Assembly: GCA_017527065.1 (NCBI GenBank)
Contig: JAFXQO010000007.1
Span: forward strand, 1 to 61,966
Direction of reading: 5' to 3'
DNA length: 61,966 bases
Source: Clostridia bacterium
GTDB lineage: Bacteria > Bacillota > Clostridia > Christensenellales > Aristaeellaceae
In this document: positions 1,189 to 60,270 of the stretch, piece by piece
How positions within the stretch are numbered: the first letter of the stretch is position 1
Layout of the letters: every line of letters begins with the position of its first letter
Program-made: the position numbers and the translations under genes
The notes under the pieces: model-generated
Databases searched by the model: none
Seen by the model: only the letters and a program-made list of their open reading frames with translations
What the model was told of the DNA's origin: nothing

Positions 1189-1279
1189 TGGCGGAGAGTC
1201 AGGGATTTGAACCCTGGGTGCGCTATCAACGCACACACGATTTCCAGTCGTGCGCCTTAGACCACTCAGCCAACTCTCC
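1189..1279 (-). tRNA. tRNA-Ser (anticodon GGA)
   Basis: Reading the minus strand, the gene starts GGAGAGTTGGCTGAGTGG and ends ACTCTCC-G-CCA, so a 7-bp acceptor stem pairs perfectly and the CCA is encoded. The anticodon arm is CACGA-CTGGAAA-TCGTG, giving anticodon GGA, which decodes UCC/UCU serine codons. A long variable arm (TGTGCG...CGCACC) and the T arm CAGGGTTCAAATCCCTG are present, as expected for a class II serine tRNA of about 91 nt. Confidence 0.96.
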
Positions 1280-1769: not shown

Positions 1770-4138
1770 GCATCGAGCTCCTCTCCCCCGCCGGCACGAG
1801 CGAGGCGCTGGTGGCCGCCGTGCAGAACGGCGCGGACGCCGTGTATCTCGGCGCGCAGATGCTCAACGCCCGGGCGGGCGCGGGGAATTTCGACCGGGAC
1901 GCGCTGCGCTGGGCGGCGGACTACGCCCACGAGCGCGGCGCGCGCATTCACGTGACGGTCAACACCATGGTGAAGGAGTCGGAAAGCGCGCTGCTGGAGG
2001 AAGTGGCGGAGCAGATGGCCTTCGCCGGCGTGGACGCCGCCATCGTGCAGGATCTGGGCGTGGCGAAGGCGCTCAGGGCCATGCTGCCCTCGCTTCCTTT
2101 GCACGCCAGCACGCAGATGGCCGTGCATAACCGGCAGGGCGTGCGCTTCGCGAAGGAAGCGGGATTCAGCCGCGTGGTGCTGGCGCGGGAGCTGACCTTC
2201 CAGGAAATCGCGGCCTGCGCGGCGGAAGGCCTTGAGATCGAGGCCTTCGCCCACGGCGCGCTGTGCGTGAGCTGTTCCGGCCAGTGCCTGTTCTCCAGCC
2301 TCGTGGGCGGCCGCAGCGGCAACCGGGGCCAGTGCGCCCAGCCCTGCCGCCTCCCCTACCGACTGGAAGGCGCGGTGAAGGCGGAGGGCTTCCTGCTTTC
2401 GCCGAAGGATCTGTGGACGCTCGACTGCCTTTCCGACCTGGCCGAAGCGGGCGTGCGCAGTCTGAAGATCGAGGGGCGCTTGAAGCGGCCGGAGTACGTG
2501 GCCGTGGTCACGCGGGCGTATCGCGAGGCCCTCGACCTGCTGGAAACCTACGGCGAATACGAGCCGGAGGAAGAGACGCGCGAGGCGCTCCGGCAGATTT
2601 TCAACCGCGGCGGCTTCACGCGGGGCTACGGTCCTGGCCTGATCGATCAGGAGCTGATGTCTCACCAGAAGCCGAATCACGCCGGCTCCCCGGTGGGCCG
2701 ATTGGTCGCGCCGGGCAAAATCGCGCTCACCCGGGACGTGGCCGCGGCGGACGCGCTGGCTTTCCGGGGCGGAAACGGCGCGGAATATCCCATGCGGCTC
2801 GAAGGCGCGGCGGGCGAGACCGTTCGTGCCAGGACGCCGGCCGGCGCGCGGCCGGGCACGACCCTCTGGCGGCTCACCAGCGACGAACAGATGAAGGAAG
2901 CCCGCGCCAGCATGAACGGCGAAAACCGCCGGGAACCGGTCTGCGGCCGGTTCTGCGCGCGCGTGGGCGAGCGGGCGGCGCTGGATGTGACCGACGGCGT
3001 CCGCACGGCGCGCGCGGAGGGCGACCTCGTGGCGCGGGCCACGGGCAAGCCCGCCGATCCCGCGCGGGTCCGCGCCCAGCTGACGAAGACCGGCGCGGTG
3101 CCCTATGAACTCATCGACCTGGCGCTGAACGTGGACGCGGACGCCTTCCTGCCCGCGTCCATGCTGAACGACCTGCCGCGGCGGGCCTTCGAGGCGCTGG
3201 GCGAAAAGCGCGTCGCGGACGCCCGCGTGTGCGACGCGGAGGCGAAGCCCCTGCCGCCTCCCGGCGATCCCGACCCGGACAAGCCGGCGGCCCCGCGGCT
3301 GCGGGTCCAGGCGCCGGACATGGCGAGTCTGCGCCTGGCGCTTCGATGCGGCGCGGACGAGGCCGTGTTCGCGCCGGAGGATCTGACCCGCGCGGCGCTG
3401 GACGAGGCCGCGGCCCAGGCGGATTTCCCCTTCGCGCTGGCGCTGCCGGACACCCTGGACGGCGCTTCGCTGGAGGCGCTGAACGCCTGGGCGTGGGAAA
3501 ATGAAGGGAAGATCACGGCGGTCCTCCGCTCGAACGCGGCGCACCTCGCCATGAAATGGCCGGGCGAAGCCCATCTGGACGCGGGGCTGAACCTGGCCTC
3601 GCGGCGGGCGCTGGAAGCGGCGGGGCTGGGCCGGGACGCGGCGCTCTACGCGCCCTCGATCGAGCTGAATACGAGCGAGATCAGGAGGATGGGCGCAGGC
3701 GGACGGCGCGAGCTGATCGTGTACGGCCGGATGCGGCTGATGTCGCTGCGGCACTGTCCTATCCGCGCGCAGCTGGGCGGCCGGCACGACGCCTGCGCCC
3801 GCTGCGACGCCGCGCCGGAGGAGAAAAAGCTGAACGCGCACCGGCTCGTCGACCGGACGGACGCGGCCTTCCCGCTGCGGCGGCAGAAGAGCCCGGGCGG
3901 GTGCATCGTGAAGGTGATGAACAGCGTGCCCCTGATGCTCCTGCGGCACGCGGGCCGGCTGCCCGCGGCGGCGGCCTGGCGCGTGATCCTCACCGATGAG
4001 GACGAGGCGAGGACGGCGGACATCGTGCGCCTGCACGCCATGGCCCTGCGGGGCGAAGATTACAAAAATACCGACGCCTGGCGGCGGCTGGAAAACGAGC
4101 CGTCCACCACGGGGCATTTTTTCCGGGGCGTGGAATAA
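1766..4138 (+). CDS. U32 family peptidase / RlhA-like protein
   Basis: The 790-residue protein starts MSIELLSPAGTSEALVAAV, the classic U32 N-terminus. Around residues 165-195 it carries the family cysteine cluster, seen as CVSCSGQC and, a little later, GQCAQPC, expected to hold an iron-sulfur cluster. A long C-terminal part (about residues 380-790) corresponds to the extended U32 type with the additional collagenase-like domain, ending in a further cysteine-containing segment (CPIRAQLGG...CARC). Family members include proteases and RlhA, which hydroxylates a cytidine of 23S rRNA; the long form with the Cys cluster favours the RNA-modification role, but this is inference. ATG 1766 overlaps the zapA stop. 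An open frame continues upstream to 1463 but lies within zapA and is not used. Confidence 0.88.
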   Translation: MSIELLSPAGTSEALVAAVQNGADAVYLGAQMLNARAGAGNFDRDALRWAADYAHERGARIHVTVNTMVKESESALLEEVAEQMAFAGVDAAIVQDLGVAKALRAMLPSLPLHASTQMAVHNRQGVRFAKEAGFSRVVLARELTFQEIAACAAEGLEIEAFAHGALCVSCSGQCLFSSLVGGRSGNRGQCAQPCRLPYRLEGAVKAEGFLLSPKDLWTLDCLSDLAEAGVRSLKIEGRLKRPEYVAVVTRAYREALDLLETYGEYEPEEETREALRQIFNRGGFTRGYGPGLIDQELMSHQKPNHAGSPVGRLVAPGKIALTRDVAAADALAFRGGNGAEYPMRLEGAAGETVRARTPAGARPGTTLWRLTSDEQMKEARASMNGENRREPVCGRFCARVGERAALDVTDGVRTARAEGDLVARATGKPADPARVRAQLTKTGAVPYELIDLALNVDADAFLPASMLNDLPRRAFEALGEKRVADARVCDAEAKPLPPPGDPDPDKPAAPRLRVQAPDMASLRLALRCGADEAVFAPEDLTRAALDEAAAQADFPFALALPDTLDGASLEALNAWAWENEGKITAVLRSNAAHLAMKWPGEAHLDAGLNLASRRALEAAGLGRDAALYAPSIELNTSEIRRMGAGGRRELIVYGRMRLMSLRHCPIRAQLGGRHDACARCDAAPEEKKLNAHRLVDRTDAAFPLRRQKSPGGCIVKVMNSVPLMLLRHAGRLPAAAAWRVILTDEDEARTADIVRLHAMALRGEDYKNTDAWRRLENEPSTTGHFFRGVE

Positions 4139-4171
4139 AGACAATTCAGTTGCGAAAGGAAGTTGAAAGGG

Positions 4172-6526
4172 ATGCGCGAAAGGAATTTGCGCGTGCTTGA
4201 ATTTCATAAAATCAGGGATATGCTCGCGGCGCTGGCCATATCCGACATGGGGCGGGAGCGCGTTCAGGCGCTGGAGCCTTCCTCCGACCCGACCGAAGTG
4301 CGCGGTCTGCAGCAGCAGACCGAGGAGGCGGGCACGGTCATCGCCTACACCGGCGGCAACCCCATGCTCTCCTTCGACGACGTGCGCGAGCATTTGAAGC
4401 GCGCCGCCGTGGGCGCGACGCTGAACCCCAAGGCGCTTTTAGAGGTGGCCGAGTCGCTGCGGGCGGCGCGGGGCGTTCGCAGCGCGCTGGTGACGGACCG
4501 GGAGAACACGCCCCTCATCACCGGCATGGCCTCGGGCCTGTCCACCAACCGACCGTTAGAGGAGGACATATTCGACGCCATCCTCTCCGAGGATGAAATA
4601 TCCGACCACGCCAGCCCGGAGCTGTACGACATCCGGCGGCACATCCGCCAGTGCAACGACCGCGTGCGCGAAAAGCTGAATTCGATCATCCACAACCCCT
4701 CCATGCAGAAATACCTGCAGGACGCCATCATCACCCAGCGCGCGGGGCGCTATGTCATTCCCGTGCGCGCCGAGGCGCGGCAGTTCGTGCAGGGGCTGAT
4801 ACACGACCAGTCCTCCAGCGGCGCCACGCTGTTCATTGAGCCCATGGGCGTTGTGGAGGCCGGCAACGACTTAAAGCAGTGGACCGGCAAGGAGCAGCAG
4901 GAGATCGAGCGCATATTGCGCGCCCTCTCCCAGAAGGTCGCGCCCGAGGCCGACCTGATGGCCGCCAACCTGAATATCCTCGCGGAGCTGGACATGATCT
5001 TCGCCAAGGCGTACCTGGGCCGCGACATGCGCGCCACCACGCCGAAGCTGAACACCGAGGGCCGCATCAACATCAAGTTCGGCCGGCACCCGCTGATCGA
5101 CCCGGCGAAGGTAGTGCCCATGAACCTATGGATGGGTCAGGACTTCACCACCCTGGTGGTCACCGGCCCGAACACCGGCGGCAAGACCGTGACGCTCAAG
5201 ACCGTGGGCCTGATGACGCTCATGGCCCAGGCGGGGCTCATGGTGCCCGCCGAGATCGGCACGGAGCTGGCCATATTCGACGAGGTGTTCGCCGATATCG
5301 GCGACGAGCAGTCCATCGAGCAGTCCCTCTCCACCTTCTCCAGCCACATGACCAACATCGTGTCCATCCTCGAGAGCGTGACGCCGCAGTCGCTGGTGCT
5401 GTTCGACGAGCTGGGCGCGGGCACCGACCCCACCGAGGGCGCGGCGCTGGCCATGTCCATCCTGGAGACGCTCAAGGAGCAGGGCGTGCGCACGTTGGCC
5501 ACCACGCACTACGCCGAGCTCAAGGCCTACGCGCTGTCCACCGTGGGGGTGGAGAACGCCTCCGTCGAGTTCGACATCGAGACGCTGCGGCCCACCTACC
5601 GGCTGTCCATCGGCGTGCCGGGCAAGTCCAACGCCTTCGAGATTTCCAGAAAGCTCGGCCTGCCGGAATACATCATCAAGAGCGCCAACGAAAAGCTGAG
5701 CAAGGACCAGATCCGCTTCGAGGACGTCATCGCCAACGCGGAATACCACCGGCAGATCGCCGAGCGCGAACGAAAGCTGGCCGAGGAGGCCCACAAGGAG
5801 ACCCAGACCCTGCGCGACGAGGCCGAGAAGCTCCGCCGCGAGATCAGTCAGCAGCGCGATAGCATGCTCAAAAAGGCCAAGGAAGACGCCCGCAAGGTGC
5901 TGGTGAAGGCCCAGCGGGAGAGCGAGCAGCTCATCTCGGACCTCAAGAAGGCCCGCTCCAAGGAAGGCCCCTCCTTCAAAGAGCACGAGCTGAACGAGAT
6001 CCGCAACAAGCTGCAGGGCTCCATCGACGACATGTCGGAGGGCTTGCGCATGCAGGCGGATACCCTCGTGGAGCCGCCGAAGGACCTGAAGCCTGGCGAG
6101 ACGGTGGAACTCTTGGCGCTGAACACCAAGGGCACCATCGTCACCCCGCCGGACGCAAAGGGCGAGGCGCTGGTGCAGGCGGGCATCATGAAGATGAAGG
6201 TGCACGTGTCGCAGATGCGGCGCGCGCAGGAGGAAAAGAAAAAGACGCGGCCCGCCAGCACGGTGACGCTGGCCAGCCGGCCGGTGAGCATGGAGTGCGA
6301 CGTGCGCGGCATGACGCTGGAGGAAGCCATCCAGGCGGTCGACCTGTTCATCGACGGCTGCGTGATGCAGTCGCTGAAGAACGTTCAAATCATTCACGGC
6401 AAGGGCACCGGCACGCTGCGCGCCGGCATCCAGCAGCACCTGAAAAAGCATCCCTCCGTGACCGAATTCCGCCTGGGCAAGTACGGCGAGGGCGAGGACG
6501 GCGTGACCGTCGTGACGCTGAAATAG
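4172..6526 (+). CDS. mutS2: Endonuclease MutS2
   Basis: The 784-residue protein has the MutS2 order: an N-terminal helical lever/clamp, the ABC-type ATPase with Walker A GPNTGGKTVTLKTVG (about residue 335) and Walker B LVLFDELGAGTDPTEGAAL, a charged coiled coil (about 510-620), and a C-terminal Smr nuclease domain (DVRGMTLEEA, then IHGKGTGTLRAG). In Firmicutes MutS2 acts on branched DNA and on collided or stalled ribosomes rather than in mismatch repair. ATG 4172 is preceded by AAAGGAAG at a normal distance; a TTG three codons upstream is possible but badly spaced. It sits 33 nt after the U32 gene, presumably in the same operon. Confidence 0.95.
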   Translation: MRERNLRVLEFHKIRDMLAALAISDMGRERVQALEPSSDPTEVRGLQQQTEEAGTVIAYTGGNPMLSFDDVREHLKRAAVGATLNPKALLEVAESLRAARGVRSALVTDRENTPLITGMASGLSTNRPLEEDIFDAILSEDEISDHASPELYDIRRHIRQCNDRVREKLNSIIHNPSMQKYLQDAIITQRAGRYVIPVRAEARQFVQGLIHDQSSSGATLFIEPMGVVEAGNDLKQWTGKEQQEIERILRALSQKVAPEADLMAANLNILAELDMIFAKAYLGRDMRATTPKLNTEGRINIKFGRHPLIDPAKVVPMNLWMGQDFTTLVVTGPNTGGKTVTLKTVGLMTLMAQAGLMVPAEIGTELAIFDEVFADIGDEQSIEQSLSTFSSHMTNIVSILESVTPQSLVLFDELGAGTDPTEGAALAMSILETLKEQGVRTLATTHYAELKAYALSTVGVENASVEFDIETLRPTYRLSIGVPGKSNAFEISRKLGLPEYIIKSANEKLSKDQIRFEDVIANAEYHRQIAERERKLAEEAHKETQTLRDEAEKLRREISQQRDSMLKKAKEDARKVLVKAQRESEQLISDLKKARSKEGPSFKEHELNEIRNKLQGSIDDMSEGLRMQADTLVEPPKDLKPGETVELLALNTKGTIVTPPDAKGEALVQAGIMKMKVHVSQMRRAQEEKKKTRPASTVTLASRPVSMECDVRGMTLEEAIQAVDLFIDGCVMQSLKNVQIIHGKGTGTLRAGIQQHLKKHPSVTEFRLGKYGEGEDGVTVVTLK

Positions 6527-6538
6527 AGGACGGACCAA

Positions 6539-7087
6539 ATGATAATCAGAAAAGCGGAGGCGCGGGACCTCCCGCGCATGATGGAAATCTACGCCAACGC
6601 GCGGGCCTTCATGGCCTCTCACGGCAATCCGAACCAGTGGGGGGCGACGAACTGGCCGCCGGAGCGCCTGATCCGCCAGGACATAAGCGAGGGAAACAGC
6701 TACGTCTGCCTGAACGGCGCGGGCCGCGTGGTCGGCGTGTTCTTCTTCATCTGCGGCGAGGACGTGGAGCCGGCCTACCGCGCCATCGAGGACGGCGCGT
6801 GGCTGGACGACAGCGCCTACGGCGTTGTGCACCGCATCGCCTCGGACGGCTCGGAAAAGGGAATCGGCGCGTTCTGCCTGAACTGGGCGTATGAACAGTG
6901 CGGCCACCTGCGCATCGACACCCACGGCGACAACATCGTGATGCAGAACCTTCTGAAAAAGCTGGGGTTCGTTCGCTGCGGCACGACCTACGTGGAGGAA
7001 GACGACGACCCCAGGCTGGCTTTTGAAAAATCGGAAAGGGCGAACCGCGAGGCGGGCGGCTCCGTCCAAAAGAGGTGGATTCAATGA
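6539..7087 (+). CDS. GNAT family N-acetyltransferase
   Basis: The 182-residue protein begins MIIRKAEARDLPRMMEIYANAR and shows the GNAT fold: a strand carrying GRVVGVFFF, then the acetyl-CoA loop region (HRIASDGSEKGIG), and a late NIVMQNLLKKLGFVRCG segment typical of the C-terminal helix. The extra WGATNWPPERLI segment is common in a clade of uncharacterised clostridial members, so the substrate is unknown. A GAGG site precedes ATG 6539. The end overlaps the ATG of the response regulator gene by four bases, so it belongs to the same operon and may be co-expressed with the two-component system. Confidence 0.85.
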   Translation: MIIRKAEARDLPRMMEIYANARAFMASHGNPNQWGATNWPPERLIRQDISEGNSYVCLNGAGRVVGVFFFICGEDVEPAYRAIEDGAWLDDSAYGVVHRIASDGSEKGIGAFCLNWAYEQCGHLRIDTHGDNIVMQNLLKKLGFVRCGTTYVEEDDDPRLAFEKSERANREAGGSVQKRWIQ

Positions 7088-7776
7088 ACAAACTCAAGAT
7101 CATGATCGTGGACGACGATCCCAACATCCAGCAGCTCATCAGCCTCTATCTCATCCGCGAGGGGTTCGACGTGACCACCGCGGCGGCGGGAGACGAGGCG
7201 CTCAGGCTCTTCAAGAGCGATCCGCCGAACCTGATGCTGCTGGACGTCATGCTGCCCGTGATGGACGGCTGGCAGGTGTGCCGCGAGGTGCGCAAGGTTT
7301 CCAACATCCCCATCATCATGCTCACCGCCAAGGACGAGACCTTCGACAAGGTGCTCGGCCTGGAGCTGGGCGCGGACGACTACATCGTGAAGCCCTTCGA
7401 CACGAAGGAGCTGGTGGCGCGCATCAAGGCGGTGCTGCGGCGGTTCCAGACGGTGGACGCCCCCGGCGCCAGCAAGGAGCTGTCCTTCCCCGGCCTCACG
7501 ATCAACATCAGCCAGTACACCGTCACCTACCTGGGCCGGCCGCTGGAGATGCCGCCCAAGGAGCTGGAGCTTCTGTATTTCCTGGCCAGCCATCCCGGCA
7601 CGGTGTTCACCCGCGAACAGCTGCTCGAACAGGTGTGGGGCTATGACTTCTTCGGCGATTCGCGCACGGTGGACGTGCACGTGAAGCGCATCCGCGACAA
7701 GCTGGTGGGCAGCGAGGAAATGGGCTGGTCTGTGCGCACGGTGTGGGGCGTGGGCTATAAGTTCGAGGTGAAATAG
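7084..7776 (+). CDS. OmpR/PhoB-family response regulator
   Basis: The 230-residue protein has a receiver domain with acidic residues D10-D12, phosphoacceptor D54 in LMLLDVMLPVMDG, T and K in MLTAKDE and VKPFD, and a C-terminal winged helix (REQLLEQVWGYDFFGDSR, then VDVHVKRIRDKL). It should bind DNA when phosphorylated by the kinase encoded four bases downstream. ATG 7084 overlaps the end of the acetyltransferase gene. The adjacent kinase and secreted HtrA-like protease suggest that it senses envelope stress and controls quality-control genes, but no operator was identified. Confidence 0.93.
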   Translation: MNKLKIMIVDDDPNIQQLISLYLIREGFDVTTAAAGDEALRLFKSDPPNLMLLDVMLPVMDGWQVCREVRKVSNIPIIMLTAKDETFDKVLGLELGADDYIVKPFDTKELVARIKAVLRRFQTVDAPGASKELSFPGLTINISQYTVTYLGRPLEMPPKELELLYFLASHPGTVFTREQLLEQVWGYDFFGDSRTVDVHVKRIRDKLVGSEEMGWSVRTVWGVGYKFEVK

Positions 7777-7779
7777 GCG

Positions 7780-9246
7780 GTGAAAAATTCGCTGTTCTGG
7801 CGGATGTTCTCCGCGTTCATGGCCGTGCTGATCGTCACGATCATGGTGCTGGCCTTCACCATGGTGGCGCTGATGCGCGCCGAACGGCAGGAGGCGCTGG
7901 AAGCGGAGGCGCGCGTTCAGGCGCGAGACCTGGCGCAGCTCATGCAGGTGCGCGACGTCACCGCCTACTGGCTGTTCGACCCCTCCGCCGCCTCAAGCGC
8001 GGCGGTCAACCGCAAGATCGACGAGATTCAGGAGACCTACGACGCCGAAGTGTGGCTGGTCAACGCCAGCGGTTACGCGGTGATCCTCAACGGCGACCAG
8101 GTGAGCGAGGAGACCCTCAGGGACGAGCGGGTGATCGAGCAGATCAGGCGTGTGCTCTCGGGCGAGGAGATCCGCCTGCAGGGCCTCACGGGCGCGCTCA
8201 CGGTGACCATCGGCGTGCCTTGGTACGGCGCGGGCCGCGCGGCGGTGGTGGGCGCGGTGCTGCTCAACGTGAGCGTGGATTCGCTGGCCGTGGACTATTC
8301 CGACCTCATCCGCTATTCGCTGCTGGCTGGCCTGCTGGCGCTCACCCTGGGCGCGGCGCTCACGCTGGTCATCGCGCGGCGGCAGACGCGGCCCATCCGC
8401 CAGATCAACGAGGCTGTCCAGGCCTTCGCCCACGGCGACTTCGACCGGCGGGTGGACATTCCCGGATCGGACGAGGCCGCGCAGCTGGCCCAGTCCTTCA
8501 ACGGCATGGCGGAGGAGATCGGCCGGCTGGATCAGTCGCGCCGCAGCTTCGTGGCGAATGTGTCTCACGAGCTGCGCTCCCCCATGACCTGCATACAGGG
8601 CTACGTGCAGGGCATGCTGGACGGCACCATCCGCGAGGACGAGCGCGAGAAATACCTGGGCACGGTGCTCTCCGAGACCCAGCGGCTGACGAAGCTGGTT
8701 TCGGAGCTTCTGGACCTGTCGCGCTTCGAGTCCGGCAAGATCCCGTTGGACAAGACGCGCTTCGACATCGACGAGATGATCCTGAACATCCTGTTCAAGT
8801 ACGAGCAGCGCATCGAGGCCAAGGGCGTGGACGTGGAGATCTCCTTCAAGGAGCAGCCCCTGTTCGTGCTGGCGGACAGCGCGCGCATCACGCAGGTGAT
8901 CACCAACCTGATCGACAACGCCGTGAAGTTCGCCGCGCAGAACGGCCGGATCATCGTGTGGACGCACGTGGTGGACAACCTGTGCTACGTGACCGTCAAG
9001 AACGACGGCGCGGGCATCCCGGCCGAAGACCTGCCCTTCGTGTTCGAGCGGTTCTACAAGGTGGACAAGGCCCATACCTCCGGCGGCGGCACGGGACTCG
9101 GCCTGGCCATCGCCAAGCGCATCGTTGAGCAGCACGGGCAGACCATCAGCGTCACCTCGGGCGGCGGACTGACCAGCTTCGTGTTCACGCTGGAGAAAGC
9201 CAGCCCGCCCGAAAGGGATACGCCAACCCAGGCGAGCGAAAAATGA
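7780..9246 (+). CDS. Membrane sensor histidine kinase
   Basis: The 488-residue kinase starts at GTG 7780 (VKNSLFWRMFSAFMAVLIV, first membrane helix). It has an extracytoplasmic sensor region of about 130 residues, a second helix near residue 175 (YSLLAGLLALTLGAALTLVI), a HAMP linker, HisKA with the phosphorylated H263 in ANVSHELRSPM, and a HATPase domain (NLIDNAVKFA, GAGIPAEDLPFVFERFY, GGGTGLGLAIAKR). The gene begins three bases after the regulator stop. The small sensor region with no obvious ligand fold prevents assigning a signal, though the HtrA-like gene downstream suggests envelope stress. Confidence 0.93.
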   Translation: MKNSLFWRMFSAFMAVLIVTIMVLAFTMVALMRAERQEALEAEARVQARDLAQLMQVRDVTAYWLFDPSAASSAAVNRKIDEIQETYDAEVWLVNASGYAVILNGDQVSEETLRDERVIEQIRRVLSGEEIRLQGLTGALTVTIGVPWYGAGRAAVVGAVLLNVSVDSLAVDYSDLIRYSLLAGLLALTLGAALTLVIARRQTRPIRQINEAVQAFAHGDFDRRVDIPGSDEAAQLAQSFNGMAEEIGRLDQSRRSFVANVSHELRSPMTCIQGYVQGMLDGTIREDEREKYLGTVLSETQRLTKLVSELLDLSRFESGKIPLDKTRFDIDEMILNILFKYEQRIEAKGVDVEISFKEQPLFVLADSARITQVITNLIDNAVKFAAQNGRIIVWTHVVDNLCYVTVKNDGAGIPAEDLPFVFERFYKVDKAHTSGGGTGLGLAIAKRIVEQHGQTISVTSGGGLTSFVFTLEKASPPERDTPTQASEK

Positions 9247-9279
9247 TTCAAAGACAAAAGCGAGGAAAGAGGTGCGAAG

Positions 9280-10338
9280 ATGAAAAACAGAACGATGAAG
9301 CTGCTGGCCCTGGCGCTGACCCTGGCGCTGCTGACGATGGGCACCGCGCGGGCCGAGACCCTTTCGGTGGCGGACGTGTACGAGCGCGTGTGCCGGTCGG
9401 TGGTGCAGGTGCGCAACATGGCGGAGACCTGGTCGCCGGATAACGGCGCGACGGTGGAAATGGCGCTGAGCGCGTCGGGCGTGGTGATCGCGGAGGACTT
9501 CGTGCTCACCAACTGGCACGTGGTCTATGAAGCGGACTACATGGAGATCGAAACGCTGGACGGGCAGATCGTGCGGGCGAAGGACGTCTACACCGACGAA
9601 AGCCTCGACCTGGCCGTGCTGGCGCTCTCCGAACCGCTCAAGGGCGTCACACCGGTGACGATGGGCGATTCGACCGCCGTGCGGACGGGCGACCTGGCCA
9701 TCTCCATCGGCTACCCGGTGCTGGAGGACATCGTGTTCCCCGCCACGCTGACGGTGGGCTACATTTCGGGCCTCAACCGCAACAGCGAGAACATGGGCAA
9801 CTTTACCCGCGACGTGCCGCTCATCCAGTTTGACGCGGCGCTGAACAACGGCGGCAGCGGCGGCGGCCTGTTCAACGCGGCGGGCGAGCTGATCGGCCTG
9901 TCCACCCTCAAGGGCGGCCTGACCGACGACATCGTGTATGAAAACCTGGGCCTCGCCATTCCCACGGCCACCATCGAGCGCGTGGCGGGCGACCTGATGG
10001 CCTACGGCGTGGTGAAGCGCCCGCGCATGGGCGTGATGGTGAGCGACCTGGACGGCCCCGAGGAGCCCATCCGCACCTATCCCCCCGCCGGCCTGCTGGC
10101 CAGCGAAGTCGACCCGGACGGCCCCGCGGGCCAGGCGGGCATGGAGGACTACGACGTGATCGTCGAATTCGACGGCGTGCGCGTGCACACCTTCAACGAA
10201 CTCTCCGCCCTGCTGGACACCCACGCCGCCGGCGACGTGGTGCGCGTGAAGGTCTACCGCTGCCTCGACGAGGAGGGCTACCTGATCGACAATCCGGAAT
10301 ACATCGAGATGGACATCACGCTGGGCATACTGGACTGA
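9280..10338 (+). CDS. Secreted HtrA-like serine protease with PDZ domain
   Basis: The 352-residue protein has a signal peptide (MKNRTMKLLALALTLALLTM...ARA) with probable cleavage before ETLSV. The trypsin-like domain shows the catalytic triad: His in LTNWHVV, Asp in ESLDLAVLAL and Ser in NNGGSGGGLFN. A PDZ domain follows (about residues 250-335; GLLASEVDPDGPAGQAGM, DVIVEFDG). Unlike many Firmicute HtrA proteins it appears to be cleaved free rather than anchored. AGAGGTG precedes ATG 9280. It lies 33 nt after the kinase gene, an arrangement like CssRS with HtrA, so its probable role is degrading misfolded exported proteins. Confidence 0.9.
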   Translation: MKNRTMKLLALALTLALLTMGTARAETLSVADVYERVCRSVVQVRNMAETWSPDNGATVEMALSASGVVIAEDFVLTNWHVVYEADYMEIETLDGQIVRAKDVYTDESLDLAVLALSEPLKGVTPVTMGDSTAVRTGDLAISIGYPVLEDIVFPATLTVGYISGLNRNSENMGNFTRDVPLIQFDAALNNGGSGGGLFNAAGELIGLSTLKGGLTDDIVYENLGLAIPTATIERVAGDLMAYGVVKRPRMGVMVSDLDGPEEPIRTYPPAGLLASEVDPDGPAGQAGMEDYDVIVEFDGVRVHTFNELSALLDTHAAGDVVRVKVYRCLDEEGYLIDNPEYIEMDITLGILD

Positions 10339-10380
10339 CGGACGCGTCAGTGCTCTGGACACTTTCGCATGCATATGAAG

Positions 10381-10427: not shown

Positions 10428-12845
10428 CTATGGCCTGCTCTCTGCCTCCCGCATGACGCGAATATTCGTCAGCGAGCATTGGTCGCCGGTGAGCGCGATG
10501 TATACGTCGCCGATCTCGTCCTTGATCGTCGTCAGGCTGTCAATCACAATGCCAACGTTTTCAGTGTGAATCGTGATGCGGTTTCCATCCCGCCTGATGG
10601 AGACCTCGCAGTCCATTCCCCGCTTGTTCTTATCCTTCCATACGCTCCAGCCCGGGAAGCCCTTCGTGTGATTGATCTGCACCTCGTTATCGGCGTGGTC
10701 GTCTGATTCCCAGTTTTCGCCGTCCAAACGAAGCAGCAGGAATTCCCGATAGCCCTCCCCTTTCACGCTGCCATTGTTTGACGTAAAGATGCTGACGTAG
10801 GGACAGTGCCACACAAGCCTGGCCGTGGGCAGGCTCTGCGTGTGGAAGACGATCCTCATGTCGTCCGTGATCGGCATACCTTCCGTCGACGCCTGGCGCC
10901 AGCCGTCAATCTGCACGTTCGGCACATCCCCCTGCGGACAATCCCGTATGTAGCTGATCTCCTCGGCGATGCGTGGGATATAGTCCTCGGCGACGCTGTC
11001 CTCATCCCGGTCAACACGGATGTTGCTTATCTGGCAATGCTCTCCAGTGAGGGAGATATAAGAGAATCTGGCGCTGTCAGGCAGCGCGACAATGGTCTCC
11101 GCGAGCTTATCGCCGTCCGAAATCCGAATGAGCACATGATCCTTCACGCGCACCGCCTCGATATCATAGCTGACGAAGCGCGCGTCCGCCGCATTTCCGG
11201 GTCCGGCATTCAGCGTTTTCACGCTGGTTTCCATCTTCCGCGCCTCTTTGCAGATCGTCCTGCCGTCGACCCTGATCTGCCCATATTCAAGATAGAGAAG
11301 ATCGTTCTTTTTGGCTTCATTCTCATGTATTCTGGCGTCCAGCGCGTCAAACAGCACGAGCGTCGGCAGGCTTTTGTCTTTCGGGAAACCGTCGTCGGCC
11401 TTGCTGTACAGATGAATCCGAACCATATGGCTGGTCACCTGGATGCCCGTTGAGCGGTCATGATAGATTGTCTCGCAGTGGAGCCGGGTCGCAAAAACGT
11501 CGTCCGTCCCCGTGTTCTGCTCGCGCATGGTGTAGTCGACATCCAGATCGATCAAATGCAGCATGATCTTCGCGTATTCGGGATCAAACTGCATGCCAAT
11601 GCCCTTGACCATTTCCTCACGCGCGTTCTGCTGGGGCATCGGGTCCCGATAGCTGCGCTTGGAGGTCATGGCGTCGTATGAATCCGCCACCGCGATGATC
11701 CGGGCGATATCCGGAATATCCTCGCCCTTCAGTCCCTCCGGATAACCCTTGCCGTCGTATCGCTCGTGGTGATAGTGCGCTCCGATGCTCAGATAAGGCC
11801 ACAACTGTATGTTGGAGAGAATCTTGCTGCCGTAAACGGGGTGCTGCTTGATCTGCGCAAATTCCTCGTCGGTCAGCTGAAAGTCCTTGCCGATGATGGC
11901 GTCGCTTATACCGATCTTGCCCACGTCGTGCAGCAGCGCCGCGAAATAAACCTGCTCGCATTCTTCGTCCGTTTTCCCCGCTTCCCGCGCGATCTGGGTT
12001 GAATACATCGCCACGCGGGTCGAATGACCATGAGTATACTTGTCCTTGGCGTCGATGGCCGTCGCAAGCGCTTCTGCCGTCTGTTCAAACAGGGCGTGTT
12101 CCTTCTTCTTCTCTTCCTTGTAATATTCAATTTCCAGCTTCCGCACGCGATCCAGTTCCTGATCCATGTCCTTCAGCGCGAATATATACAGAAGCGCGGC
12201 CATGGCGACAATCATCATGTTGTTCAGGGAGACGCCGTAAACGAACGCCTGAAGCACCGAAGCGATCACGGAGAAAATCGCAAACAGCAGAATGGAAAAC
12301 CCGATGCCGCGCCTCAAGCGTTTGAGATACTGCACGATGACGGACATTTGCAGGACCAGAACCGACATCGGAACCAAATAGCACACAATATACCCCGGCG
12401 CGCGCTGGTAACGATTCATTTCGTCAAAGGTATAATAGAATCCGGTGAATTGGGAAACGACGACCATCGCCATGCCCACAAGCATCAGAACGCTCGCGGC
12501 CTTCAGCCTCTTTGGCGGCGCGTCGAGCCCGCCTTCGTGAGTATACAGGTCGATCAAGTACCTGTTGAAGCTGTATAACACGACGAGCGTCAGGAAGAAC
12601 ACGAGAAAATTGCTGATGCGCACCATCCACCAGCCCAGTGAGCTGGTGTCGCCCCGGAAAATATAGGCCCGGCGGTCGGAAATCAGCAGGAGCATGGCGC
12701 TGAATTCCAGCAGCATCAGCGACAGCTTGCGGCTTTTCGTCATGGTCTTCGTCAAATAAACGAACAACGTCATGATGCCGCATATCCCGCTCAGAACCAA
12801 CATAATATCGGCTTGGTTTTGTCTCAACGCTTCCACAATTATCAC
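10428..12845 (-). CDS. Membrane HD-GYP domain protein with large C-terminal extension
   Basis: This 805-residue protein has about six to eight N-terminal membrane helices, a cytoplasmic linker, and an HD-GYP domain at roughly residues 255-420. The metal-binding and GYP motifs are visible: HGHSTRVAMYS, LLHDVGKIG, HHERYDGKGYPEGL, and ADSYDAMTS. HD-GYP proteins usually hydrolyse cyclic di-GMP. The last 380 residues form a beta-rich region with two related segments ending YISLTGEHCQISNIRV and YIALTGDQCSLTNIRV, which I do not recognise. The start is GTG at 12845; a GTG three codons later (12836) is also possible from the GAGGCGA site. The gene is somewhat less GC-rich than its neighbours and is followed by a GlpP-like gene on the same strand. 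Confidence 0.88.
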   Translation of the reverse strand: MIIVEALRQNQADIMLVLSGICGIMTLFVYLTKTMTKSRKLSLMLLEFSAMLLLISDRRAYIFRGDTSSLGWWMVRISNFLVFFLTLVVLYSFNRYLIDLYTHEGGLDAPPKRLKAASVLMLVGMAMVVVSQFTGFYYTFDEMNRYQRAPGYIVCYLVPMSVLVLQMSVIVQYLKRLRRGIGFSILLFAIFSVIASVLQAFVYGVSLNNMMIVAMAALLYIFALKDMDQELDRVRKLEIEYYKEEKKKEHALFEQTAEALATAIDAKDKYTHGHSTRVAMYSTQIAREAGKTDEECEQVYFAALLHDVGKIGISDAIIGKDFQLTDEEFAQIKQHPVYGSKILSNIQLWPYLSIGAHYHHERYDGKGYPEGLKGEDIPDIARIIAVADSYDAMTSKRSYRDPMPQQNAREEMVKGIGMQFDPEYAKIMLHLIDLDVDYTMREQNTGTDDVFATRLHCETIYHDRSTGIQVTSHMVRIHLYSKADDGFPKDKSLPTLVLFDALDARIHENEAKKNDLLYLEYGQIRVDGRTICKEARKMETSVKTLNAGPGNAADARFVSYDIEAVRVKDHVLIRISDGDKLAETIVALPDSARFSYISLTGEHCQISNIRVDRDEDSVAEDYIPRIAEEISYIRDCPQGDVPNVQIDGWRQASTEGMPITDDMRIVFHTQSLPTARLVWHCPYVSIFTSNNGSVKGEGYREFLLLRLDGENWESDDHADNEVQINHTKGFPGWSVWKDKNKRGMDCEVSIRRDGNRITIHTENVGIVIDSLTTIKDEIGDVYIALTGDQCSLTNIRVMREAESRP

Positions 12846-57583: not shown

Positions 57584-58216
57584 ATGGCGTTTGATTTCAG
57601 GAAGGAATACAAGGAGTTTTACATGCCCAAGGACCGGCCGCAGATCGTGACGGTTCCCCCGGCCAACTATATCGCCGTGCGGGGCAGCGGCGATCCGAAC
57701 GAGGAGGGCGGCGCTTACAAGCAGGCCATCGGCGTGCTGTACGCCGTCGCCTACACGCTGAAAATGAGTTACAAAACCGACTACCGCATCGAGGGCTTTT
57801 ACGACTACGTCGTGCCGCCGCTCGAGGGGTTCTGGTGGCAGGACGGCATCGAGGGCGTGGATTGCGCCGCCAAATCGGCCTTCAACTGGATCTCGGTCAT
57901 TCGCCTGCCGGATTTTATCACCGGAGAGAACGTGGGCTGGGCGGCTGAAACAGCCTCCGCGAAAAAGAAAATGGACTGTTCGCCGGCGGAATTCCTCACA
58001 GTCGACGAAGGGCTCTGCGCGCAAATCATGCACCACGGCCCATATGACGACGAACCCGCGACAGTCGCCCTGATGGACGAATTCCTGGCGGAAAACGGCT
58101 ATGTGAACGATTTCGGCGGCGGACGCCTGCACCACGAAATCTACCTGTCCGACGCCCGGAAGACGCCGCCCGAGAAGTGGAAGACCGTGATCCGGCATCC
58201 GATCAGGCGCGCGTGA
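57584..58216 (+). CDS. GyrI-like small-molecule-binding domain protein
   Basis: The 210-residue protein begins MAFDFRKEYKEFYMPKDRPQ, then NYIAVRGSGDPNEEGGAYKQA and YRIEGFYDYVVPPLEGFWW, followed by FLTVDEGLCAQIMHHGPYDDEPATV. These mark the GyrI-like (SbmC/DUF3788-type) fold; members bind or hydrolyse small hydrophobic compounds. No DNA-binding domain. A TATAAT (57513-57518) upstream suggests a promoter. ftsH follows after 26 bases. Confidence 0.85.
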   Translation: MAFDFRKEYKEFYMPKDRPQIVTVPPANYIAVRGSGDPNEEGGAYKQAIGVLYAVAYTLKMSYKTDYRIEGFYDYVVPPLEGFWWQDGIEGVDCAAKSAFNWISVIRLPDFITGENVGWAAETASAKKKMDCSPAEFLTVDEGLCAQIMHHGPYDDEPATVALMDEFLAENGYVNDFGGGRLHHEIYLSDARKTPPEKWKTVIRHPIRRA

Positions 58217-58242: not shown

Positions 58243-60270
58243 ATGAAAGAAGTCAACCGGAAGCCGCTCATATTCTACTATCTCATCGCGCTGGGCGTCA
58301 TCCTGCTGCTGAACTGGTTCCTGATGCCGAATCTGCTGAACCAGGCCATATCGGAGGTGGACTACTCCACCTTCCTGAAGATGCTGGACGACAAGCAGGT
58401 GTCCAAGGTGGAGGTGGAGGCGGACGCCATCTACTTCCTCGACAAGGACGAGCCGCCCATGCTTTACGCCACCACGCCCTTCAACGACCCGAACCTTGTG
58501 GACCGGCTGTACGAGGCCGGCTGCGAATTCGGCCAGGTGCGCGAGCGGCAGATGAGTCCCCTGCTCAGCTTCCTCATCAGCTGGATCGTGCCCCTGGGCA
58601 TGATGCTGCTGCTGGGCCAGCTGGCCTCCCGCTTCCTCATGAAGAAGATGGGCGGCATCGGCGCCAACGCCATGTCCTTCGGCAAGAGCAACGCCAAGAT
58701 GTACGTCGCCTCGGAGACAGGCATCAAATTCAGCGACGTGGCCGGCGAGGACGAGGCCAAGGAGGCGCTGCAGGAGATCGTCGATTTCCTGCACAACCCG
58801 CAGAAATACAAGGATATCGGCGCGAAAATGCCCAAAGGCGCGCTGCTCGTGGGCCCTCCGGGCACGGGCAAAACCCTGCTGGCCAAGGCGGTCGCGGGCG
58901 AGGCGAACGTGCCCTTCTTCTCCATCTCCGGCTCCGAATTCGTCGAGATGTTCGTGGGCATGGGCGCGGCCAAGGTGCGCGACCTGTTCAAGCAGGCCGC
59001 GGAAAAGGCCCCCTGCATAGTGTTCATCGACGAGATCGACACCATCGGCAAAAAGCGCGACGGCCACGGCTTTTCCGGCAACGACGAGCGCGAACAGACG
59101 CTGAACCAGCTGCTGGTTGAGATGGACGGTTTTGCCGTTAACGAAGGCATTATCGTGATGGCCGCGACCAACCGCCGGGATATTCTTGATCCCGCGCTGA
59201 TGCGCCCCGGCCGGTTTGACCGGCAGGTGACGGTGAACTATCCGGATCAGAACGGCCGCGTCGCCATCCTGAAGGTTCACAGCAAAGGAAAGACGCTGGC
59301 GGACGATGTCGATCTGAACAACATCGCCAAACGGATGCCTTATGCCACCGGTGCGGATCTGGAAAACGTGATGAACGAAGCGGCGATTCTGGCTGCGCGC
59401 GCCCGGAAAAAGAAGATCGACCAGCAGTTGCTGATCGACGCGATCGCCCGGGTTCAGATGGGCCCGGAAAAGAAGAGCCACAAGGTGAACGAGAAGGACC
59501 GCCGGATGGTTGCCTGCCATGAAGGCGGCCATGCGATCATCGGCCATGTACTGGAAGGCTGCGACGAGGTGCACCTGATCACGATCGTTCCGCGCGGACA
59601 GGCTGCCGGACATACGCTGGCGCTGCCGACAGAGGAACACGACAACATGAGCCGGTCACAGCTGCTGGACCAGATCACCATGATGCTCGGCGGCCATGCC
59701 GCGGAGGAGGTTGCCCTGGGAGAGATTTACACCGGTTCTTCCAGTGACCTGAAGCGCGCAACAGAGATCTGCCGGAAAATGGTTACCCAGTTCGGTATGA
59801 GCGACAAGATCGGCACGATCTATCTGGGCAGCGATCAGGAAGTCTTTGTCGGCATGGAATTCGGGCAGAGCCGGGAATACAGTGAAGAAGTGGCCGCGAA
59901 GATTGACCGGGAAGTGGCCGAAATGCTGGCAACCTGCTATGACAAGGCCAGGCAGATCCTGACGGACAACCTTGAGCGGCTGAACCAGCTGACCGAGGCG
60001 CTGCTCAAGTATGAGACGCTGAACAGGGCCGAATTCGTCGCGCTGATGGACACCGGCGAGGTACCGGAAGGCCTGGATGACGACAAGCCGCGGACGGCTG
60101 CGGAAGTGATTCAGCAGGCGAAGACTGAGCAGGCGGCAGCGGAATCTGCTCCTGCTGAGAATACTCCGACAAAAAAAGCGGATGATCCTGCTGAAGGCGT
60201 TCCTGCTGAAGATGTTCCGGCCGAAGAAATTCCGGCAGAAGCAACCGCATCAGCGGTACAGAAAGAGTAA
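58243..60270 (+). CDS. ftsH: ATP-dependent zinc metalloprotease FtsH
   Basis: The 675-residue protein has two N-terminal membrane helices (LIFYYLIALGVILLLNWFLM, about 7-28, and ISWIVPLGMMLLLGQLASRF, about 110-130), AAA with Walker A VGPPGTGKTLLAKAVAGE, Walker B CIVFIDEIDTIG, second region of homology (ATNRRDILDPALMRPGRFDR), and a zinc protease domain with HEGGH (HExxH). The C-terminus is long and repetitive, rich in Pro/Ala/Glu. Codon choice changes sharply at about 59,110, inside the AAA domain (see findings). GGAGGG precedes ATG. It degrades membrane and regulatory proteins. Confidence 0.95.
   Translation: MKEVNRKPLIFYYLIALGVILLLNWFLMPNLLNQAISEVDYSTFLKMLDDKQVSKVEVEADAIYFLDKDEPPMLYATTPFNDPNLVDRLYEAGCEFGQVRERQMSPLLSFLISWIVPLGMMLLLGQLASRFLMKKMGGIGANAMSFGKSNAKMYVASETGIKFSDVAGEDEAKEALQEIVDFLHNPQKYKDIGAKMPKGALLVGPPGTGKTLLAKAVAGEANVPFFSISGSEFVEMFVGMGAAKVRDLFKQAAEKAPCIVFIDEIDTIGKKRDGHGFSGNDEREQTLNQLLVEMDGFAVNEGIIVMAATNRRDILDPALMRPGRFDRQVTVNYPDQNGRVAILKVHSKGKTLADDVDLNNIAKRMPYATGADLENVMNEAAILAARARKKKIDQQLLIDAIARVQMGPEKKSHKVNEKDRRMVACHEGGHAIIGHVLEGCDEVHLITIVPRGQAAGHTLALPTEEHDNMSRSQLLDQITMMLGGHAAEEVALGEIYTGSSSDLKRATEICRKMVTQFGMSDKIGTIYLGSDQEVFVGMEFGQSREYSEEVAAKIDREVAEMLATCYDKARQILTDNLERLNQLTEALLKYETLNRAEFVALMDTGEVPEGLDDDKPRTAAEVIQQAKTEQAAAESAPAENTPTKKADDPAEGVPAEDVPAEEIPAEATASAVQKE

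Follow-up and report, generated by a model that had tools for sequence, protein, structure and literature searches.

The ftsH locus at the right end of contig C32

The window is the whole of contig C32 (61,966 bp), one of 85 contigs of a 3.07 Mb draft genome (G000) that is listed as 89% complete and 1.97% contaminated. At its right end lie a GyrI-like gene, ftsH and a vanW-domain gene (Table 1). Profile search of the ftsH product revealed FtsH_ext, AAA, AAA lid and Peptidase_M41 domains (PF06480, PF00004, PF17862, PF01434), and the presence of FtsH_ext, AAA and Peptidase_M41 in one protein identifies an FtsH protease, here a composite one. The earlier note on this DNA had stated that the protein reads through without a gap, which the open frame and the full set of FtsH domains confirm.

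Table 1 Features of the window. Type A and type B are labels coined in the present analysis from the protein trees; percentages are DNA identities; G numbers denote genomes and C numbers contigs.
Feature	Position	Strand	Evidence and remarks
HD-domain protein gene	10,428-12,845	-	GC3 0.74, lower than neighbours; adjoins HtrA-like gene
GyrI-like gene, upstream of ftsH	57,584-58,216	+	PF06445; congener copies G002:C206 (77%), G001:C22 (73%)
ftsH open reading frame	58,243-60,270	+	675 aa, open throughout
Native 5' part, type-A ftsH (FtsH_ext, most of AAA)	58,243-59,093	+	91% to G004:C49, 89% to G001:C173
Junction interval (DEREQTLNQLL)	59,081-59,117	+	Cut compatible with site patterns at any point of 59,080-59,093; words common to type-A and type-B relatives reach 22 bp
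Foreign 3' part, type-B ftsH (end of AAA, lid, peptidase M41), very probably of a genus-g26 organism	59,094-60,270	+	86% to G088:C168
VanW-domain gene, very probably foreign, truncated by the contig end	60,327-61,966	+	PF04294; collinear with G088 at 84%

Codon usage changes within ftsH

A break in codon usage near 59,110, continuing into the vanW gene, had been described before, and both parts of that description hold: GC3 falls from 0.913 up to about 59,110 to 0.707 beyond (Fisher p 1.3e-11, comparing both parts of ftsH) and stays low in vanW (0.690). Across the break GAT rises from 2 to 11, GAA from 5 to 23, GTT from 0 to 10, ATT from 0 to 7 and CGG from 3 to 13, all as claimed; CCG, which had been named with them, barely rises (6/14 to 9/15, CCA not counted). 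Codon usage alone locates the break loosely, because the strongest change point of the whole gene lies at 60,136 and marks the low-complexity C-terminal tail, a misleading result for which the search was rerun on codons 1-606. On these codons GC3 changes most strongly at 59,116, falling from 0.914 to 0.765 (log-likelihood gain 12.8), a strength reached in 1 of 10,000 permutations, and all positions from 58,978 to 59,131 lie within 2 log-likelihood units of it.

Such a fall could also arise within one native gene, if strong codon selection acted on the AAA core but not on the 3' end, and the further drop of GC3 in the low-complexity tail beyond 60,136 fits this reading. However, the type-A genes of two same-genus genomes (congeners) show no fall at the motif (left/right GC3 0.935/0.952 in G004 and 0.834/0.932 in G001), and beyond 59,243 the right half of the window gene is only 35-63% identical per 100 bp to these congener genes. 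We therefore give this explanation almost no credence, and the placement of the two halves in two tree clades refutes it.

The two halves of ftsH fall into different clades

We built protein trees from residues 116-284 (48 rows) and 292-606 (49 rows). In the first, the left half of the window gene groups with type A of G001 and G004 (support 100/97); in the second, the right half groups with G088 inside the type B of genus g26 (support 99/90), and over these residues it is 98% identical in protein to G088. Both halves are represented in the trees for 44 other ftsH genes, a count that leaves aside one divergent outlier on contig C23 of the same genome; of these, 18 are type A twice, 26 are type B twice and none is mixed. 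Searched separately, the halves likewise find their best matches in different genera, the left one in congeners (89-91%) and the right one in g26 (86%). That two DNA origins are present within this ftsH is practically certain, and the suggestion that two sources meet inside a conserved AAA segment is thereby upheld. By their placement in the trees the halves represent different paralogues, type A on the left and type B on the right, so this is not a simple orthologue replacement. The outlier is a third, very divergent FtsH-like gene of the same genome (L007, 2677-4143, 488 aa), long-branched in both trees.

A sharp switch at the AAA motif

To place the switch we aligned the window with the type-A genes of two congeners and with eight type-B genes of g26, and followed the 489 sites that distinguish one set from the other. 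One cut, placed at any point of 59,080-59,093, fits equally well, accounting for 469 of the 489 sites and, within ftsH, for 466 of 477; the remaining 12 sites lie upstream of ftsH, where the congeners have a different gene, and 3 of them fit. Within ftsH, 193 of 198 informative sites up to 59,085 follow the two congeners (5 are B-like), the interval 59,086-59,115 holds three B-like sites and no A-like one, and beyond 59,115 there are 270 B-like and 6 A-like sites, so that from 59,094 on 273 of 279 match g26 type B. Measured against this cut, the break position given in the earlier note was correct to about 30 bp.

Identity per 100 bp traces the same change. Towards the two congener type-A genes it is 82-98% up to 59,142 and 41-70% over 59,143-60,142 (for G004 alone 82-95%, then 70% in the next stretch and 39-59% thereafter), and towards the eight type-B genes of g26 it rises from 33-81% to 65-92% over 59,143-60,042 (for G088 alone from 33-72% to 83-92% over 59,143-60,142). 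At the junction the window runs exactly with four compared type-A relatives for only 16-18 bp, up to 59,090-59,093, and from 59,092 its exact agreement with g26 relatives extends up to 47 bp. On these site patterns the ancestry switch inside ftsH is real and sharp.

The left half and the rest of the contig resemble the congeners

A full type-A ftsH matching the left part of the window gene is found in two of the four congeners (G004 and G001); the other two give weaker matches only (73-74%), to parts of the left half, and no type-A match. In G004 and G001 the gene is unbroken and continues into a different 3' half (genes of 612 and 634 aa), which matches the right part of the window gene at 72-74% over 122-162 bp only. 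When L050:9200-17000 served as the query, the window's own genome yielded no native type-A 3' half, only fragments of 42-184 bp at 70-86% against the first 1.4 kb of that half.

The rest of C32, compared with the congeners over 2.2-10.3 kb, 9.5-29.4 kb and 40.0-59.1 kb, gave many matches of 75-93% plus weaker ones, in a much rearranged order. A convergent HtrA-like gene comes after type-A ftsH in G004 and G001; the window has its counterpart at 9,280-10,338, beside the HD-domain gene. Gene order was considered as a guide to the true continuation after ftsH and rejected: because order in the genus is much rearranged where compared, that of the congeners does not show what follows ftsH in the window's organism.

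Three further places on C32 were noted. The HD-domain gene has no match in any of the four congeners at E<=1e-60 and is patchily distributed, with matches at that threshold in 29 of the 308 family genomes (its own counted, some over part only); its candidacy as a second foreign join was rejected since the DNA on both flanks matches congeners, and we read it as an accessory gene. A block at about 2159-10349, with the HtrA-like protease, a histidine kinase and others, is opposite in orientation to the block from 12,885 when compared with G004 and G001, which would reflect either an inversion or a further assembly fault. At the left end of the contig (1-1300), tRNA-Ser (1189-1279, minus strand) adjoins DNA of 0.49 GC with a short open reading frame, perhaps the edge of an island.

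The right end of the contig points to genus g26

At E<=1e-100 the tail from 59,115 to 61,966 matches 149 of the 308 family genomes searched, among them the window's own, and its best matches lie in genus g26, of which 37 genomes carry a match and at least 8 among the genomes listed do not. None of the four congeners has a match at this threshold; they match the ftsH part of the tail more weakly, at 66-67%. The best match, G088:C168, is collinear over both genes, and G091 matches ftsH at 85% and vanW at 77%. In G088 the order is tilS-like, hpt-like, ftsH, vanW (the first two named by reading translations), and the DNA upstream of its ftsH has no match in the window's genome at E<=1e-10. The tail is 2.85 kb long and runs to the contig end without a return to native DNA.

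The window's genome also has a type-B ftsH of its own, which is split. Contig C78 (L055) carries tilS-like and hpt-like genes and the 5' part of ftsH and then ends, and contig C60 (L054) carries the 3' part, a PHP-like gene and a vanW-like gene (C78 and C60 genes named by reading translations). The end of C78 (equivalent to 59,002) and the start of C60 (equivalent to 59,097) are separated by some 95 bp of this AAA region. These breaks in the junction region would suit a within-genome artefact in which this gene was joined to the organism's own type-A gene. Yet C60 is only 69-70% identical to the right half of the window gene, it groups with the congeners' type B and not with g26, and its gene order differs: vanW follows ftsH directly in the window, which is the order of G088 and not that of C60, because C60 has the PHP-like gene in between. 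The chance of such an internal join is negligible in our judgement, identity and tree together refuting it. By collinearity with G088 and by the trees, the 3' half of ftsH and the vanW gene very probably belong to a g26 organism near G088 and not to the window's organism; the earlier expectation that the genes right of the break are foreign if the join is an artefact agrees with this assignment.

The junction lies where contigs tend to end

We surveyed ftsH in 50 genomes (the own one included) for contig ends, following 17 matches picked by eye as looking cut; 16 proved to be contig ends inside ftsH and one, G040:C166, was internal. With the end of G003:C72 the cluster had held 10 of 16, but that end was set aside because the contig opens with roughly 90 bp that are not ftsH. 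Nine of the 15 remaining ends fall within the 141 bp equivalent to 59,060-59,200, where 1.2 would be expected if ends were spread evenly along the gene (P 3e-7), and 8 of 13 do so without the own genome (P 1e-6), figures to be read with the crudeness of the even expectation and the choice of matches by eye in mind. On G003:C72 (L171), a congener contig, the terminal 90 bp or so are unrelated DNA that gives way abruptly to a type-B ftsH near residue 307; this may be a further faulty join at that AAA motif.

Type-A and type-B genes (4 and 10 compared) are alike here, with an identity of 0.78 over 59,081-59,120 vs 0.55 over 58,243-60,060. The three most alike 40-bp stretches are 58,844-58,883 (0.85), 59,095-59,134 (0.82) and 59,185-59,224 (0.82). 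Likeness alone does not explain the cluster of ends, because none of the 15 lies in the most alike stretch, 58,844-58,883, which contains the GPPGTGKT motif. At 59,081-59,102, which is the junction itself, relatives of type A and type B have exact words in common that reach 22 bp, as with G004 for type A and the g26 genome G029 for type B; in relatives of the two sources, words of this length would suffice for an assembler word length of about 21. The place of the junction thus looks like an assembly weak point.

Discussion

Our analysis makes it highly probable that the end of C32 is an assembly artefact in which the ftsH genes of two genera were joined. The earlier note had offered an assembler join or homologous recombination, and the evidence favours the former. 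Three marks of a chimeric contig were found: the sides are of different lineages, types A and B resemble each other where the join falls, and the join is missing from the independent genomes compared. Very probably, two or more related organisms from one family were present in the sample, including the window's own (genus g1) and one of genus g26 near G088. Around the AAA motif DEREQTLNQLLVEMDGF, type-A and type-B ftsH paralogues closely resemble each other in DNA. We infer that, in the assembly graph, reads of both genes had a short exact stretch in common within 59,081-59,117, the word itself having been measured in relatives of the two source genomes only, and that the assembler would have departed from the g1 type-A gene at the junction and gone on into the g26 type-B ftsH and vanW until the contig ended 2.85 kb later.

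Interspecies homologous recombination produces mosaic genes with a sharp ancestry switch in a conserved segment and the frame kept, and the window gene shares these features. On this account a g26 fragment would have been taken up and recombined into type-A ftsH via the conserved AAA motif, leaving a hybrid FtsH and a foreign vanW. The in-frame open hybrid with FtsH domains and the collinearity of g26 DNA over 2.85 kb agree with it, and so does the failure to find the native type-A 3' half in the own genome, which is weak either way in a draft that is 89% complete; a seamless in-frame protein, for its part, is expected under both recombination and an artefact. An artefact is favoured because the foreign tract reaches the contig end, with no return to native DNA; because the junction looks like a weak point for assembly, where contig ends cluster and where the genome's own type-B ftsH is also interrupted; and because the join occurs in none of the 44 other genes, and the tail (E<=1e-100) in none of the four congeners. 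Unlike recombination mosaics, moreover, the switch lies between paralogues of two genera, at a site prone to contig ends. Natural recombination between the genera is thus unlikely, at a small fraction of the total probability, and we hold it equally improbable that the organism carries the hybrid that would follow from it, a type-A membrane and N-terminal part with a type-B protease.

Among FtsH proteins (AAA+ membrane proteases), each half of the window protein is an ordinary FtsH half and the whole frame an A/B composite. The passages of PMC12108083 on metagenome-based gene catalogues flag chimeric genes in which the expected family is matched by one region and a different taxon by another, the two overlapping slightly, and propose misassembly as the cause. 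The window ftsH is like the chimeras described there in that its regions match two taxa and only a small overlap matches both; unlike them, as those passages present them, its parts are also different paralogues, joined at a motif where the contigs of other genomes repeatedly end.

This gene is a clear case of a chimeric contig in a genome listed at only 1.97% contamination, and it escapes notice there since the frame runs on across the join and the gene appears complete. Users of the genome would attribute a hybrid FtsH and a vanW gene of another genus to the organism. The pile-up of contig ends at the ftsH motif in related drafts suggests a screen in which the two halves of FtsH are compared for paralogue type. 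For the organism itself, the hybrid is very probably not a real biological feature, of low interest as biology and of moderate interest as a warning.
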